Source: Nitrosomonas cryotolerans ATCC 49181 (GTDB lineage Bacteria; Pseudomonadota; Gammaproteobacteria; Burkholderiales; Nitrosomonadaceae). Taken from it: a DNA stretch of 64,000 nucleotides. A model generated the notes under the pieces. That model was given only the letters and a program-made list of their open reading frames with translations. It was not told the origin of the DNA and did no database searches. Shown in pieces: positions 40,365 to 46,796 of the stretch. The position numbers were made by a program, and so were the translations under genes. Numbering within the stretch: position 1 is the stretch's first letter; each line of letters opens with the position of its first letter. Location of the stretch: contig NZ_FSRO01000001.1 of assembly GCF_900143275.1 (NCBI RefSeq), forward strand, positions 1,506,116-1,570,115, written 5' to 3'.

Positions 40365-41105
40365 ATGATAAAATCTGATAACTTTCGATTATATATTAAT
40401 GCATTAGCGGCTATTTTATGGATGAGTGCAGGACAGGCCGCATTTGCGCATACGCGATTACAAGTACCACAGATCAATGAAGGTGAGAGGGTTTTCAATA
40501 ACGTGGTGATTGGACATGGCTGTGGTGATAAGGCCATTATTGGCTCTTCTGTTGTTTTTCCAGATGGCGTGGATTCGACAATACTGGTCAATGATGTCGC
40601 GCATGAAGGCCCGTTGACCGACTTTGTTGAAAATTGGGGCAATCTCAATCAAATGGCCATAACACGCGCTGTATTTACAAATGCAGATGAGAAAGTGGAC
40701 GCGAATGGCAATGTTGTTGGATTCTGGTTTGGTGGAGGTGAGGGTATGAATGCGCACCATATGGCGCTGCTACCATTCAGAACGAGCGCTGCGCTTATTA
40801 ATCCAGAGTCTTGTGCCAGGAGTGTAACATTCAATATATCAATCGTTGATGTCTGTGAGATATCAGGTATTGATGGTTTGGTGCATGGAGAAACCGCTAA
40901 TCTGTGGACCCAAAAAGTAGGTACGGTTTTTGATTATACCGGAGAGACGGATACAGGCCCGGCACCGCTAAAAATCCAGCGCGTTTCCGCATTGCCGGAA
41001 TCTTGCGGGGAGGGTGTGGATGTGATCGTCAAGCCTTCAGCCAATCAAATTAATCGTGATATGCCAATAAAAATTAATGGTCAGCAAGTCTGGCCACAGC
41101 CTTAA
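40365..41105 (+). CDS. YcnI/DUF1775-like secreted protein, putative copper binding
   Basis: A 246-residue exported protein. The signal peptide ends AAFA, so the mature protein would begin HTRLQVPQ. The segments NEGERVFNNVVIGHGCG and SVVFPDGVDSTI resemble the VxHGCxGSxT..IPEGV region of DUF1775/YcnI proteins. Characterised members bind Cu(II) through the amino-terminal His (a mono-histidine brace) plus Glu and Trp. Four Cys may form disulphides. A strong AAGGAAGGAG precedes the ATG. It heads the 40.3-46.8 kb cluster. Copper binding is inferred; the match is partial. Confidence 0.7.
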   Translation: MIKSDNFRLYINALAAILWMSAGQAAFAHTRLQVPQINEGERVFNNVVIGHGCGDKAIIGSSVVFPDGVDSTILVNDVAHEGPLTDFVENWGNLNQMAITRAVFTNADEKVDANGNVVGFWFGGGEGMNAHHMALLPFRTSAALINPESCARSVTFNISIVDVCEISGIDGLVHGETANLWTQKVGTVFDYTGETDTGPAPLKIQRVSALPESCGEGVDVIVKPSANQINRDMPIKINGQQVWPQP

Positions 41106-41374
41106 TATTGAGGTAAGTACGGATGGCAATGACTCTCCGATTCCGTCCGTATTCATAAAATAAGTGGATCAATCCGGGTTTTGATATGGACAGGGCCGGT
41201 CATTAAGAAGGCTTGATTAGATGACGGATGTTATTCTTTTAATTGGTCGATATTGAGTGATTCATGGGTTATGGTGATATATTAATCATGAAGTCGGTTT
41301 TTATAGTCGGCTATCGTGATCAGTATCTTACTCAGCAGGTTAAATAACGTATATAGAGAGAGGAGGACTTGGTG

Positions 41375-41857
41375 ATGCTATCCCTATTCTTAAGAAAGGC
41401 GACATTCTGCGCTCTTATTATTTTATCAATAGTTCTCTATGCTGGCGTGAGCCATGCACATACGGGAGGTGGTACGCTTGATTCCGAAAATATGTTCAGA
41501 AATTTTACGGGCCAAGCACAAATTACCTGCTTTGATGATGGTAACGGGCCTGCAGATCACGTGATTGTCCGAATCAGGGATAACTCGCCTCCAGTACCGA
41601 ATTTGCTGGTAAATCTTCAGGTCTATAAAGGCAATAAGGCAAATAGTATTAGTGATACGACCTCAGGCGATGCGAATTTTAGTCCGTTTATTACCTTACA
41701 AGCCGGTCCGGGTGTTTATTGGATACTGGTGAATAAAACCGATGTGGGAACTCGATTTTTTGAAATTGAATGGCACTGTAATACGATCGATAGTGTGCAT
41801 ACGGGAACAGATATTGGTGTAACTCAATTTGGAATCCCGGAATTTAAACCGAGGTGA
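41375..41857 (+). CDS. Secreted protein of unknown function with predicted mature N-terminal His
   Basis: I do not recognise the family. The 160-residue precursor has a signal peptide ending GVSHA, giving a mature start HTGGGTLDSENMF. The mature region is beta-rich, with two cysteines (ITCFDDGNG and EWHCNT) that probably pair. GVYWILVNKTDVGTRFFEIEWHC looks like the end of a beta-sandwich. An amino-terminal His as in the preceding gene suggests metal binding, but other ligands are not evident. The start is the ATG at 41375, eight bases after GAGGAGG; in-frame TTG and GTG lie just before it. Confidence 0.7.
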   Translation: MLSLFLRKATFCALIILSIVLYAGVSHAHTGGGTLDSENMFRNFTGQAQITCFDDGNGPADHVIVRIRDNSPPVPNLLVNLQVYKGNKANSISDTTSGDANFSPFITLQAGPGVYWILVNKTDVGTRFFEIEWHCNTIDSVHTGTDIGVTQFGIPEFKPR

Positions 41858-42260
41858 ACGCAATATTTGTTATTGCATTCTATAAATACTGGAGCAGCAT
41901 CATTTTTGTTGTGTGCCCGATAAAAATACAGAGACATACAGAGACCAGAGGGTAATTTTAGTCGTTGTGCTGTGAAGCGCTGTCTCTGTTATTCAGGGTA
42001 ATGATATAGCGTGGTTCCATGCTAAGTTTTTCCAGCTAGTCGCGTCGGCATTTACTACGGCACGATGACAGATACGGTATCTCGCAAGATATGCGGATAA
42101 AACCGTGGAGATATGGTTTAGTCGCTTGCTGAAAGAGAGTGTCTAGACAGCTCGGAGTTGGATTGAGTGCGATGGGAGTCTCCTGACTTCAGGCAGGGAG
42201 ATGTCAACTAAGTAAGCAATAAAAGTAAGATGATTAGTTTACACTAGACGGTAATTTGTG
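41858..42260. other. Gap before the thioredoxin-like gene
   Basis: About 400 bases with no supported reading frame. It probably contains the promoter for the tlpA-like to apbE operon; I could not assign -10 and -35 boxes with confidence. Confidence 0.5.
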
Positions 42261-42773
42261 ATGATAAGACAGATTTGGTTATTATTCTTGACAGGGTTCG
42301 TACTGACTCTAGCTACGACAATGTCTGTATCGGCTCGCTCTGTCGGAGAGGTGCAGCCATCTTGCATGCTCACTTCACTGGAAGGTGAACACGTCTATAA
42401 TTTGCAAGAGCTAAAAGGAAAAGTAATTTACGTTGATTTCTGGGCTTCCTGGTGTCCGCCTTGTGTCAGATCTTTTCCATTTCTAAATCAGTTAGAACAC
42501 GATTTGAAAGATCAGGGTTTGCAAGTAATTGGTATTAATCTGGATGAAAAGCTTATGGATGCAAAAAAATTCCTGGACAAATATCCGGCTGGTTTTACCA
42601 TTGCACTTGATCCAGATAAGCAATGCGCCCGAGATTTCGGTGTGATTGCCATGCCCACTTCTTACATAATTGATCAAGAAGGCATTATCCGGCACGTTCA
42701 TCAGGGATTTCGATCTGGAGATAAACAAGAATTGCGCGGTGTACTTGAACATCTATTGACAGAATCACTATGA
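42261..42773 (+). CDS. TlpA/ResA-like thioredoxin-fold protein
   Basis: A periplasmic thiol-disulphide oxidoreductase of about 170 residues. The signal peptide ends VSARS. The active site is FWASWCPPCVRSFPF (CPPC), and the cis-proline is in VIAMPTSYIID. VIGINLDEKLMDAKKFLDKYP is typical of TlpA/ResA proteins. It probably reduces or assembles partners of the following genes, for example cysteines of the DUF4266 lipoprotein or a copper centre. That role is inferred from position. The start is the ATG at 42261, following an in-frame GTG. Confidence 0.9.
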   Translation: MIRQIWLLFLTGFVLTLATTMSVSARSVGEVQPSCMLTSLEGEHVYNLQELKGKVIYVDFWASWCPPCVRSFPFLNQLEHDLKDQGLQVIGINLDEKLMDAKKFLDKYPAGFTIALDPDKQCARDFGVIAMPTSYIIDQEGIIRHVHQGFRSGDKQELRGVLEHLLTESL

Positions 42774-42848
42774 GTTTCCTTGCTTGTCATTCAGACTAGA
42801 TCTGCCATACGTTTAAAACACCTCGATAATTTTCTGTTATTGAAAATA

Positions 42849-43073
42849 ATGAAGAATACGCGAATTACGGTAGTCCTATTTGTTTTGACTGGCGTCATCT
42901 TATCAGGTTGTGCCAATGTGGCGCCCTGGGAGCGTGGTATTCTTGCTAAACCACAGATGGCTCTGGATCCGCACCCCTTGCAAAGTACCATACGCGCACA
43001 TAATTATGGTAGTCGTGAAGCAGCGGCAAGTCCCCATTCTGCCGGTGGTGGAGGTGGCTGTGGTTGTTTCTGA
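42849..43073 (+). CDS. DUF4266-type lipoprotein with GGGGGCGCF tail
   Basis: A 74-residue lipoprotein with a signal peptide and lipobox VILSGC (Cys21). Right after the lipidated Cys comes ANVAPWERGILAKPQMA, the WERGxLAKxxM motif of DUF4266. The protein ends with a glycine run and two cysteines (GGGGGCGCF). The family is known to me from clusters with thioredoxin, DUF3570 and ApbE genes, but its function is not described. The Gly-Cys tail could bind a metal or receive a modification. The ATG at 42849 is used; longer open frame upstream lacks a signal. It is 25 bases before the next gene. Confidence 0.88.
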   Translation: MKNTRITVVLFVLTGVILSGCANVAPWERGILAKPQMALDPHPLQSTIRAHNYGSREAAASPHSAGGGGGCGCF

Positions 43074-43098: not shown

Positions 43099-45852
43099 AT
43101 GGAATCAGATAGCTTGAAGTCTGGTGGCAGAGACCGGTGTTTCATTGTTAGTCACCAGTCATGCGAACCAGCATCTCATATCACCTCATCGAAAAATACT
43201 ACCTTACAGGCACTGACTTCTGCAGCGCTGGTTCTACCAGGTCTGTTGTTGCCGCCGGCTCAGGCTGCTGATGTGGGGGCTGACAGTTTCAGCTTCCAAT
43301 ATAGCCGGTTTCAGGAAGGGAAAAGAAAACTTTTTACCGTACCCAATAGCGCTAAACCGATTGAGGCAGAGGTGATTCATGCAAGTGGAAATCTTTCTTT
43401 AACGGATCGTGTTAAATTTTCTTTTAACTATACGCGCGATACTTGGTCTGGTGCGACACCGGTTACTACGGCTCCTTTGGCGACCAATGGCAATCGACCT
43501 ATTCTGAGGAATTTACCTTCCGGAGTTGTTGTAGCAGGCGCTTCTCCTTTTGTGAATACACAGATTCTACTGGATCGACAACTCAATCCGATTAGACAAG
43601 ATGCTTTGACTGGGCAAATAATTGGTAAGGATACCCGGGCAGTGGAGATTTTATCTTCTGCATCGCCGGAAACGCGTAATGCGGCTGATTTTAAACTAGG
43701 TTATGAGTGGAATGAAGCGGCTTTAGATATTGGAGGGGGGCTCTCGCTGGAGAATGATTTCGAATCCCGCTACGGTAACGTGAGCGGACGACTCGATTTT
43801 AATCAGAAGCTAACCAGCCTGAAACTGGGGCTGGGTTATACCAGCAGCGATATTTCCGCTATTCTTGACCATGATATTGTACCTTATCTGACTCGAACGG
43901 CTTTTGCAAGCCAGATAGAAAGTCGCGGGGGGTCGGAGATATTGCATGGCAGTCGTCAAGACTGGACAAGCCATTTTGGTCTGACTCAGATTCTGAGTAA
44001 GCATGCGCTGATCGATGCCAATATTGACTATACCCATAGTACGGGATTCATGGAGAATCCCTACAAGGCGATGACCGTTATCTTTGTTGATCCGGCGTCC
44101 CTTAATGATAATCAGAATACGCCGATTGTAGGCGATGTGCGTGCCTTGATTGAGCAACGGCCCAATATTCGTAACCAGTTAGCCATCAGTACGAAATATG
44201 TTCAATATGTCAGTAAATTTGATGCAGCCTTACATTTGAACTATAAGTTCTCCTATGACGACTGGGGCATTAATACTAATACATTTTCGGCTGACTGGAT
44301 TCAACCGCTTGGTCGTGGCTGGACGCTAACACCCAGAGTTCGTTATTACTCGCAGGATGCGGCCAGTTTCTATCAACCGTATCTCTTTTCCCAGCAGTCG
44401 TTTAGTAGTCGGGCGGTAGATCAGCTGGGGCGGCAGATATGGGTTGATGTAAATAATCCAGATATGCAGTTTGTGCGTGACGGAAATTTTAATCTGCGCG
44501 ATAGTAATGGGGATCTGGTTGACGAATCCTTGCTGAATGTACAACCGAAGACCGATACTTTTGATGCGGATAAATTACCGGATAATTTTTCCAGTGATCA
44601 TCGCTTGTCTGGTTTTGGTTCGTTGAGTGGGGGTTTTGCATTGAATAAAACCTTTGTCAAAGGAATCGAACTGGAAGCCGGTTTCGAATATTATACGCGT
44701 GCAAGTTCATTAAAATTAGGTGGAAGTGGCGGAACAGGTTTTGCTGATTTTGATTATTATGTTGCGAATGCTGTCATAAAGATTAATGTGGAGCAGTTGA
44801 ATTTTTCCACCGATGATAATCATCATCGTTCACATTCAGACCATAATAGTGTGTCAGATCATCATCATGGCGAACATGGGCCGGCGGGCTTGATGTATAG
44901 TCATATGCTGGATAAGGCAGGTGATTTTATGTTCGGCTATCGTTTCATGTACAGCCGCCAGGCGGGTAATATGCTGCGTGGTGCCCATCCGGCCAGTGAT
45001 CAGATGATTGTAGATCTGGGCTGCAGCGATAGTACGCAATGCAGATTTACGCCGACTTATATGAACATGAATATGCATATGCTCAATATCATGTATGCTC
45101 CAACTGATTGGCTGAATGTGATGTTGATGCCTAATTTTATGGATATGGATATGGATCTTCGCGCGCTATCTGGACGTCCTGCTGCTATACCTGGTATTCA
45201 TGAGCATACTGGCATCGCCGGACATGCTACAGGTGGTGTGGGTGATACCGTCATGTCTTCTCTGGTTAAATTGTATGCAACATCCGGGCACCAGCTTCAC
45301 ATGGGTTTGGGACTCAGCGCACCTACCGGGAATGTGGATTTGGAGTTAAGACGTATTTTTCAGATTGATGGTGGACTGATTCATTTTGGCATGCAGTTGG
45401 GAAGTGGCACATGGGATTTTCTACCCAGCCTTACCTACACAGGACACAGTAGGCGCTGGTCCTGGGGAGCACAGTTAAATGGTGTCAAGCGCATGGAAGA
45501 GCAGAATAAATCCGGTTATCGTTTGGGTGATATGTTTCAAGCCACAACGTGGGGTGGCTACCGTTTGAACCGATGGCTGTCTGCCTCAATACGCGGCATT
45601 TATACCTTACAAGGTGCGATTAAGGGCGATTTTAATGTGTTTAATGCTCGTATCGGACCAATGGATTTTCCCACCAATCAGGGCGGGCAATATTGGGATA
45701 TCGGGTTGGGTTTAAATGTTTCTGTTCCTAGCGGTAAATTTGTCGGTAACAGTCTGGGTGTTGAATGGCTGCAACCCCTGCGCGATGATGTTAACGGTTT
45801 TCAATTAGAACGCAAGGGTGCGCTTGCCGCGACCTGGGGCTATAGTTTTTAA
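43099..45852 (+). CDS. DUF3570 outer-membrane protein fused to a His/Met-rich second barrel
   Basis: A 917-residue exported protein. After a long N-terminal leader (signal-like segment about 33-56, ending PPAQA) comes a DUF3570-type beta-barrel (about 60-580). Residues 114-120 read D-T-W-S-G-A-T, matching the Dxx(S/T)GA(T/S) consensus flavinylated by ApbE. A His-rich linker (about 573-595; HHRSHSDHN and DHHHGEH) joins a second barrel-like domain (about 595-917). That domain has a Met-rich stretch, YMNMNMHML to MDMDMDL, and C-terminal strands ending WGYSF, the aromatic end usual for BAM substrates. DUF3570 proteins I know are about half this length, so this looks like a fusion. Confidence 0.82.
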   Translation: MESDSLKSGGRDRCFIVSHQSCEPASHITSSKNTTLQALTSAALVLPGLLLPPAQAADVGADSFSFQYSRFQEGKRKLFTVPNSAKPIEAEVIHASGNLSLTDRVKFSFNYTRDTWSGATPVTTAPLATNGNRPILRNLPSGVVVAGASPFVNTQILLDRQLNPIRQDALTGQIIGKDTRAVEILSSASPETRNAADFKLGYEWNEAALDIGGGLSLENDFESRYGNVSGRLDFNQKLTSLKLGLGYTSSDISAILDHDIVPYLTRTAFASQIESRGGSEILHGSRQDWTSHFGLTQILSKHALIDANIDYTHSTGFMENPYKAMTVIFVDPASLNDNQNTPIVGDVRALIEQRPNIRNQLAISTKYVQYVSKFDAALHLNYKFSYDDWGINTNTFSADWIQPLGRGWTLTPRVRYYSQDAASFYQPYLFSQQSFSSRAVDQLGRQIWVDVNNPDMQFVRDGNFNLRDSNGDLVDESLLNVQPKTDTFDADKLPDNFSSDHRLSGFGSLSGGFALNKTFVKGIELEAGFEYYTRASSLKLGGSGGTGFADFDYYVANAVIKINVEQLNFSTDDNHHRSHSDHNSVSDHHHGEHGPAGLMYSHMLDKAGDFMFGYRFMYSRQAGNMLRGAHPASDQMIVDLGCSDSTQCRFTPTYMNMNMHMLNIMYAPTDWLNVMLMPNFMDMDMDLRALSGRPAAIPGIHEHTGIAGHATGGVGDTVMSSLVKLYATSGHQLHMGLGLSAPTGNVDLELRRIFQIDGGLIHFGMQLGSGTWDFLPSLTYTGHSRRWSWGAQLNGVKRMEEQNKSGYRLGDMFQATTWGGYRLNRWLSASIRGIYTLQGAIKGDFNVFNARIGPMDFPTNQGGQYWDIGLGLNVSVPSGKFVGNSLGVEWLQPLRDDVNGFQLERKGALAATWGYSF

Positions 45853-45863
45853 TTCGGAGAATA

Positions 45864-46796
45864 TTGGCAAGTTTAGAGTTTTATCAATGTGACTTTACAG
45901 CGATGGGCACTCCCTGCGCTATTCAACTGTATGCGAAGACACGCAGTAAAGCCAAGTGCGTGGCTGATAAAGCGATTGGGGATGTTCAGCGACTGGAAGC
46001 GATTTATTCGCGTTATCGTGAAGATAGTTTTTTATCCGAAATTAATCGTACCGCGGCACTGGGTGGTCGTATATCAGTAGATGCTGAAACGGCCGGATTG
46101 TTGGATTATGCAGCAATCTGTTATCGAGAGAGTGATGGGTTATTTGATATTACCTCCGGTATCTTGCGTCGGGCTTGGAATTTTAAATCAGCCCATTTAC
46201 CTTCCGGTGAAGTCATTCAAAGTCTGCGCGAAAGAGTGGGCTGGGATAAGTTAAGTTGGATTTCACCCATACTGGAATTTCCTATGGCAGGCATGGAGAT
46301 TGATTTTGGTGGAATAGTGAAGGAATATGCGGTTGATCGTGCTGCTGCATTGTGTTGGGAAGGGGGTATCCAGCATGGCATGGTCAATTTGGGTGGAGAC
46401 ATTAAAATTATCGGTCCTCACGCTGATGGAAATCCCTGGCGTATCGGAATACGCCATCCACGTCAGACCAATGCGGTGTTGCTGACACTACAGCTGTATA
46501 CGGGCGCTTTGGCCAGCAGCGGCGATTATGAGCGTTGTATTATTCTCAATGGCATGCGCTATGGACACGTGCTCAATCCTAAAACAGGTTGGCCAGTACG
46601 GCAAATGGCATCAGTCAGTGTTGTGGGTGATTTCTGTGTTGTTGCGGGCAGTGCTTCGACTATTGGTATGCTTAAGGAAGAGAAAGGACAGAGCTGGCTT
46701 GATGAGTTAAATTTGCCACATTTGTGGGTAGATATCAATGGGCAAACCGGTGGTTCGCTGACCAGTACGGCGAGCGATAATGTATATAAAGTTTAA
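45864..46796 (+). CDS. apbE: FAD:protein FMN transferase (ApbE family)
   Basis: Transfers FMN from FAD to a Thr/Ser of target proteins. The 310-residue protein shows FTAMGTPCAIQLYAKT at the start, RLEAIYSRYREDSFLSEINR, MEIDFGGIVKEYAVDRA, GMVNLGGDIKIIG and ALASSGDYER followed by YGHVLNPKTGWPV, all family signatures with the metal-binding Asp/Ser region. The start is a TTG at 45864 with GGAGA just before it. No signal peptide or lipobox is present, unlike the typical periplasmic ApbE. It starts 11 bases after the DUF3570 gene, so that barrel is the best candidate substrate. Confidence 0.93.
   Translation: MASLEFYQCDFTAMGTPCAIQLYAKTRSKAKCVADKAIGDVQRLEAIYSRYREDSFLSEINRTAALGGRISVDAETAGLLDYAAICYRESDGLFDITSGILRRAWNFKSAHLPSGEVIQSLRERVGWDKLSWISPILEFPMAGMEIDFGGIVKEYAVDRAAALCWEGGIQHGMVNLGGDIKIIGPHADGNPWRIGIRHPRQTNAVLLTLQLYTGALASSGDYERCIILNGMRYGHVLNPKTGWPVRQMASVSVVGDFCVVAGSASTIGMLKEEKGQSWLDELNLPHLWVDINGQTGGSLTSTASDNVYKV

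Follow-up and report, generated by a model that had tools for sequence, protein, structure and literature searches.

The question raised by this locus is whether an outer-membrane barrel protein of Nitrosomonas cryotolerans carries a covalently bound flavin, which enzyme would attach it and what it would serve for. The 64,000-nt stretch of DNA that was analysed (the window) holds a gene for a DUF3570 protein, with genes for an exported thioredoxin, a DUF4266 lipoprotein and an ApbE on the same strand (Table 1). For the family, the headline of a flavinylated DUF3570 protein is right and was published in 2021: coexpression with the cognate ApbE led to modification of the Chlorobium luteolum protein, and flavinylation was abolished only by serine replacement at both of its [S/T]GA[S/T] motifs (Meheust et al. 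2021, PMC8238504). As the same paper described clusters of ApbE, DUF3570, thioredoxin-like and DUF4266 genes, both DsbD-linked and DsbD-less, the novelty that the initial annotation had seen in a flavin on an outer-membrane barrel has to be given up. In the literature search, DUF3570 or DUF4266 was named in PMC8238504 alone, while a follow-up paper (mSystems 2024) mentioned the outer membrane, with DUF3570 absent from its text. What looks new is that the partner ApbE belongs to a separate cytosolic clade lacking the catalytic Asp, and that nitrifiers and methanotrophs, which depend on copper, have the barrel joined to a second one rich in Met. The gene in the window probably encodes an outer-membrane electron-transfer protein, flavinylated before export by its cytosolic neighbour ApbE and using the flavin to reduce a metal substrate.

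The DUF3570 gene and its flavinylation motif

The 917-aa protein matched Pfam family PF12094 over residues 37-555 (E 1e-106, 357.8 bits vs. a cut-off of 25), while NCBIfam returned no name for it. The letters GATACTTGGTCTGGTGCGACA at positions 43438-43458 translate into DTWSGAT, residues 114-120 of the ORF, just as the initial annotation had read them, and they gave the sole D..[ST]GA[ST] match in the six frames of the 64-kb window. The apbE gene was likewise found 11 bases past the DUF3570 gene, as annotated (stop at 45852, TTG start at 45864). Because 998 of 100,000 shuffled versions of the protein contained such a motif (about 1%), its presence in a single sequence is weak evidence, and it is conservation that decides. 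In an alignment of 46 fused homologues, D114, W116, G118, A119, T120 and P121 were invariant. Position 117 was S with few A or G exceptions. This conservation rules out a chance motif, although the 1% shuffle rate is not negligible. The putative FMN acceptor is Thr120 (codon 43456-43458).

This is the only intact [S/T]GA[S/T] site of the protein, and a degenerate second site follows it, of which G147 and A148 were invariant in the 46 fused homologues. The second site was intact in three loci (L064, L065 and L138), reading DTITGATP, DTISGATP and DGVSGATP, respectively; these are fused DUF3570 proteins with two intact flavinylation motifs, like the published C. luteolum case.

Table 1. Features of the locus, with positions counted in the window and residues in the protein concerned.
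Feature	Position	Strand	Basis or detail
Secreted protein, predicted mature N-terminal His (AFA/HTRLQ)	40365..41105	+	In 29 other loci
Secreted protein, predicted mature N-terminal His (SHA/HTGGG)	41369..41857	+	In 38 other fused loci
Exported TlpA/ResA-like thioredoxin	42258..42773	+	W-C-P-P-C
DUF4266 small lipoprotein	42780..43073	+	PF14086, E 3e-18; likely ATG start 42849
DUF3570 protein, 917 aa	43099..45852	+	ORF call; Pfam PF12094
N-terminal signal segment of DUF3570 protein			About residues 36-57
First barrel, DUF3570 part			Residues 60-565, about 16 strands; predicted model and fold matches
ApbE flavinylation motif, D114-T-W-S-G-A-T120	43438..43458	+	Pattern search and homologue conservation
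Degenerate second site, A146-G-A-S149, then P	43534..43545	+	Motif D and S/T absent
His-rich linker between barrels	44806..44883	+	Low model confidence at 569-591
C-terminal Met-rich COG4313-like outer-membrane barrel (predicted)	44887..45849	+	Residues 597-917, about 12 strands
ApbE, cytosolic clade	45864..46796	+	PF02424, residue alignment, tree
E154 (K-E-Y) of ApbE	46323-46325	+	
G262 of ApbE, replacing triad/metal Asp	46647-46649	+	

The AlphaFold2 model of the protein (mean pLDDT 78.6, pTM 0.69) showed two barrels, with strands over residues 63-563 and 610-916. In the fold search, the predicted first barrel matched various porin-like barrels and BamA, and the predicted second barrel matched 4rl8_C (Z 24.9, 2.7 Å over 254 residues). 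In the model, the end of strand 3 (residues 105-126), a strand that comes after a four-residue turn (101-104), holds the motif. Short turns of such barrels are normally periplasmic, so the motif, being preceded by one, should lie close to the extracellular end of this strand, judging from the order of strands; this placement was not found in the literature. The second site (146-149) falls in the loop after this strand, a poorly modelled part. A motif near the outer strand end would need to be modified before the barrel is assembled, which agrees with a cytosolic ApbE.

Kind of ApbE and conservation of the motif across loci

In the alignment of 145 DUF3570 loci, the motif columns read D-x-x-[ST]-[GS]-[AGS]-[ST] in nearly all, and the [S/T]-G-A-S-P version that the initial annotation had named for the equivalent place was indeed present in many unfused proteins. 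The 86 ApbEs encoded in the fetched DUF3570 flanks departed from the usual family pattern, with Gly replacing the Asp of A-D-A-x-x-T in 81, Glu replacing the Gly of K-G-Y in 81 and both changes in 80, while the triad Ser and His were kept in all 86, the Lys was kept and the Thr mostly so. The usual Asp and Gly were found in 28 of 31 controls, which were 30 ApbEs of DUF3570-negative genomes plus the window genome's own second ApbE. Moreover, median N-terminal hydrophobicity was 0.12 in the Gly/Glu-type enzymes vs. 2.66 in the Asp-type, and in a tree built without the two diagnostic columns all Gly/Glu-type ApbEs (82/82) formed a single group without any Asp-type member (support 0.985). Four exceptions near DUF3570 (L186, L194, L199 and L204) were exported Asp-type ApbEs, adjoining Gly-less motifs.

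The pairing of motif and enzyme was counted from the 145 loci, scoring Gly at motif position 5. A Gly/Glu-type apbE was nearby in 80 of 115 scorable motif-Gly loci vs. none of 22 Gly-less loci, the latter mostly reading D-x-x-[ST]-S-A-S (Fisher 2e−10, a value free of phylogenetic correction that overstates the evidence because related genomes are not independent). The expectation that the motif would track with a neighbouring apbE thus held for the kind of apbE, but not for about 30 full-motif loci in which none was found nearby, partly since contigs end. The stricter rule, that the motif is always lost without apbE, was rejected, given that these loci keep it and that Gly-less loci often had an apbE of exported length on the same contig, 7-12 kb off. 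Divergent loci (L186, L194, L199 and others) encoded a DUF3570 protein with D-x-x-[ST]-S-A-S-I-D-V and a close apbE of the exported type, while many other divergent loci had apbE on the contig at a distance of 7-12 kb. An ApbE somewhere in the genome was found in 106 of the 106 DUF3570 genomes tested and in 240 of 339 genomes of a class-wide sample, which takes in the DUF3570 genomes. The plasmid collection yielded no non-proteobacterial DUF3570/ApbE pair for comparison, only relatives of the C-terminal barrel. That the motif is a structural element of a barrel hairpin, unmodified in this lineage, is very improbable: its residues do sit in a conserved strand end, and some Gly-less DUF3570 proteins keep D-x-x-[ST]-S-A-S in that position with no apbE close by, but the motif Gly goes with the kind of neighbouring apbE, and flavinylation was demonstrated directly in the family (PMC8238504).

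The ApbE of the window matched PF02424 (E 1.3e-72, 245 bits vs. a cut-off of 25.6) and retains Ser219 and His235 of the catalytic triad. Neither a signal peptide nor a lipobox was found in the sequence upstream of the conserved MGT, and a stop codon in frame, lying seven codons ahead of the TTG and 19 residues from the MGT, leaves no room for a signal peptide. The Asp replaced in this enzyme aligns with Asp285 of Vibrio cholerae ApbE, which belongs to a set of three conserved catalytic residues (PMC12052999), while in Escherichia coli ApbE metal 1 is bound by D280, D283 and T284, and E169 is a ligand of metal 2 (PMC4767422). The Glu of K-E-Y adjoins the E169 position in the alignment, and Glu154 may compensate for the lost Asp, the loss of which could abolish or alter ApbE activity. 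Since Gly262 takes the place of the conserved Asp, the enzyme was filed as a PF02424 relative rather than a canonical ApbE, and from its sequence it probably works like ApbE, in a non-canonical form. No earlier report of a signal-less, Asp-less ApbE clade was found in the literature searches made; the survey of Meheust et al. (2021) was filtered on signal peptides, and the phrase 'cytosolic ApbE' had no match in its eLife text (PMC8238504).

Two readings dissociate this enzyme from flavinylation of the barrel. Enzymes of the Gly/Glu type might attach another group, or only bind or hydrolyse FAD, so that DUF3570 would carry something else or nothing. The change of the triad/metal Asp to Gly in 81 of 86 ApbEs near DUF3570 speaks for this, as the residue is catalytic in V. 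cholerae (PMC12052999) and the E. coli aspartates bind metal 1 (PMC4767422), but it is quite unlikely in view of the retained Ser, His, Lys and mostly Thr, of the Glu beside the metal-2 ligand position, and of the flavinylation of C. luteolum DUF3570 by its cognate ApbE, which could be of either type (PMC8238504). Alternatively, flavinylation might be periplasmic, by a second, exported ApbE or through an unrecognised export of the neighbour, with the cytosolic ApbE serving another substrate or function. The genome does have an exported, Asp-type second ApbE (G000:C1:2827745-2828593, L206), near an FMN_bind gene in an apparent nqr cluster, and the known flavinylation of extracytosolic substrates is mostly periplasmic (PMC12052999). 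This reading is nevertheless unlikely, because about 80 loci have a Gly/Glu-type ApbE near DUF3570 and none lies beside Gly-less motifs, because another genome of the genus (G102) has, next to its gene for the fused protein, a signal-less ApbE that is the only one of that genome, and because the motif, near the outer strand end in the model, would be poorly reachable once the barrel is assembled. Modification by the neighbouring ApbE, as proposed in the initial annotation, is favoured by the Chlorobium biochemistry (PMC8238504) and by the match between motif and kind of apbE, but the neighbour is not the standard periplasmic enzyme, having neither the signal peptide nor the conserved Asp.

The fused Met-rich barrel and its possible metal substrate

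The fusion of DUF3570 to a Met-rich COG4313-like barrel was found only in Nitrosomonas and methanotrophs (Methylococcales), to which all 44 named contigs belonged in a search that was seeded with the window protein and favoured its close relatives; it was not found in the literature. Met residues 657, 659, 661, 665, 675, 677, 683 and 685 of the second barrel were invariant in the 46 fused homologues. Furthermore, among 80 sampled genomes with DUF3570, PF02461 (amoA/pmoA) was present in 4 of 4 fused vs. 2 of 76 unfused ones, and the window genome has three amoA-family copies. Elsewhere, the C-terminal barrel domain was seen behind a different N-terminal barrel on plasmid NZ_AP022335.1 of Methylosinus sp. 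C49 (L207), by PepSY-TM and FeoB genes, and in Ruegeria a protein related to the second barrel bears the annotation of a transporter.

Upstream of the DUF3570 gene, the two genes for secreted proteins, neither with a Pfam match, also adjoin the fused DUF3570 in relatives, and His35 was conserved in at least 95% of each. A conserved His at the mature N-terminus resembles that of copper-binding histidine-brace proteins, and these residues are possible copper ligands. The DUF4266 lipoprotein has the lipobox LSGC and a C-terminal C-G-C-F. Sigma-70 promoter-like sites occurred at chance level only, while terminator-like sites exceeded the mean of the shuffles. For the fused protein, the preferred function is to reduce or take up copper, with iron as the main alternative, favoured by the VIT1 iron transporter carried by 25 of the published clusters (PMC8238504) and by the C-terminal-barrel relative located by FeoB.

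Proposed pathway and comparison with known systems

Under the preferred explanation, the signal-less partner ApbE would move FMN from FAD onto Thr120, and possibly also onto Ser149, of the unfolded cytosolic precursor, since an outer-membrane protein served by an ApbE clade without signal peptide would be flavinylated before export. The precursor would then be exported, although the bulky group on an FMN-bearing chain may hinder its passage through Sec, and would fold into a barrel of about 16 strands, placing the flavin on strand 3 close to its extracellular end. The flavin would receive electrons from the periplasm via the thioredoxin of TlpA type and the DUF4266 lipoprotein with its CxC, and would in turn reduce an extracellular or barrel-bound substrate. 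In the Nitrosomonas/Methylococcales form, for which the fused His/Met-rich second barrel suggests a metal ion, we infer that this substrate would most likely be copper for ammonia or methane monooxygenase. Taken in its full detail, the account is tentative, namely that a cytosolic ApbE clade whose metal site has been remodelled (Gly for Asp, K-E-Y) flavinylates an outer-membrane protein while it is still unfolded and ahead of Sec export, that the flavin ends up close to the cell surface, and that in copper-monooxygenase bacteria the fused Met-rich barrel reduces or takes up copper. For a functionally open family, it makes testable whether a covalent flavin can be added before export across the inner membrane, how an ApbE works without the conserved aspartate, and whether a surface flavin serves nitrifiers and methanotrophs in acquiring the copper of their key enzymes.

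The system shares with that of C. luteolum the Pfam family, a [S/T]GA[S/T] motif in ApbE context, the neighbouring apbE and the thioredoxin-like and DUF4266 partners of the family clusters. Unlike C. luteolum, with two modified sites (PMC8238504), the window protein has a degenerate second site and an extra fused Met-rich barrel, and its ApbE is of the cytosolic clade without the triad Asp, while the C. luteolum enzyme could be of either type. The cytosolic ApbE of Klebsiella pneumoniae, which acts with fumarate reductase, likewise has no signal peptide and a dedicated substrate, but that substrate is soluble and cytosolic (cited in PMC12052999), while the one proposed here is an exported outer-membrane protein. 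Finally, the predicted C-terminal barrel shares its fold with the COG4313 outer-membrane channel of Pseudomonas putida (4rl8), but differs in lying behind DUF3570 via a His-rich linker and in its rows of invariant Met.
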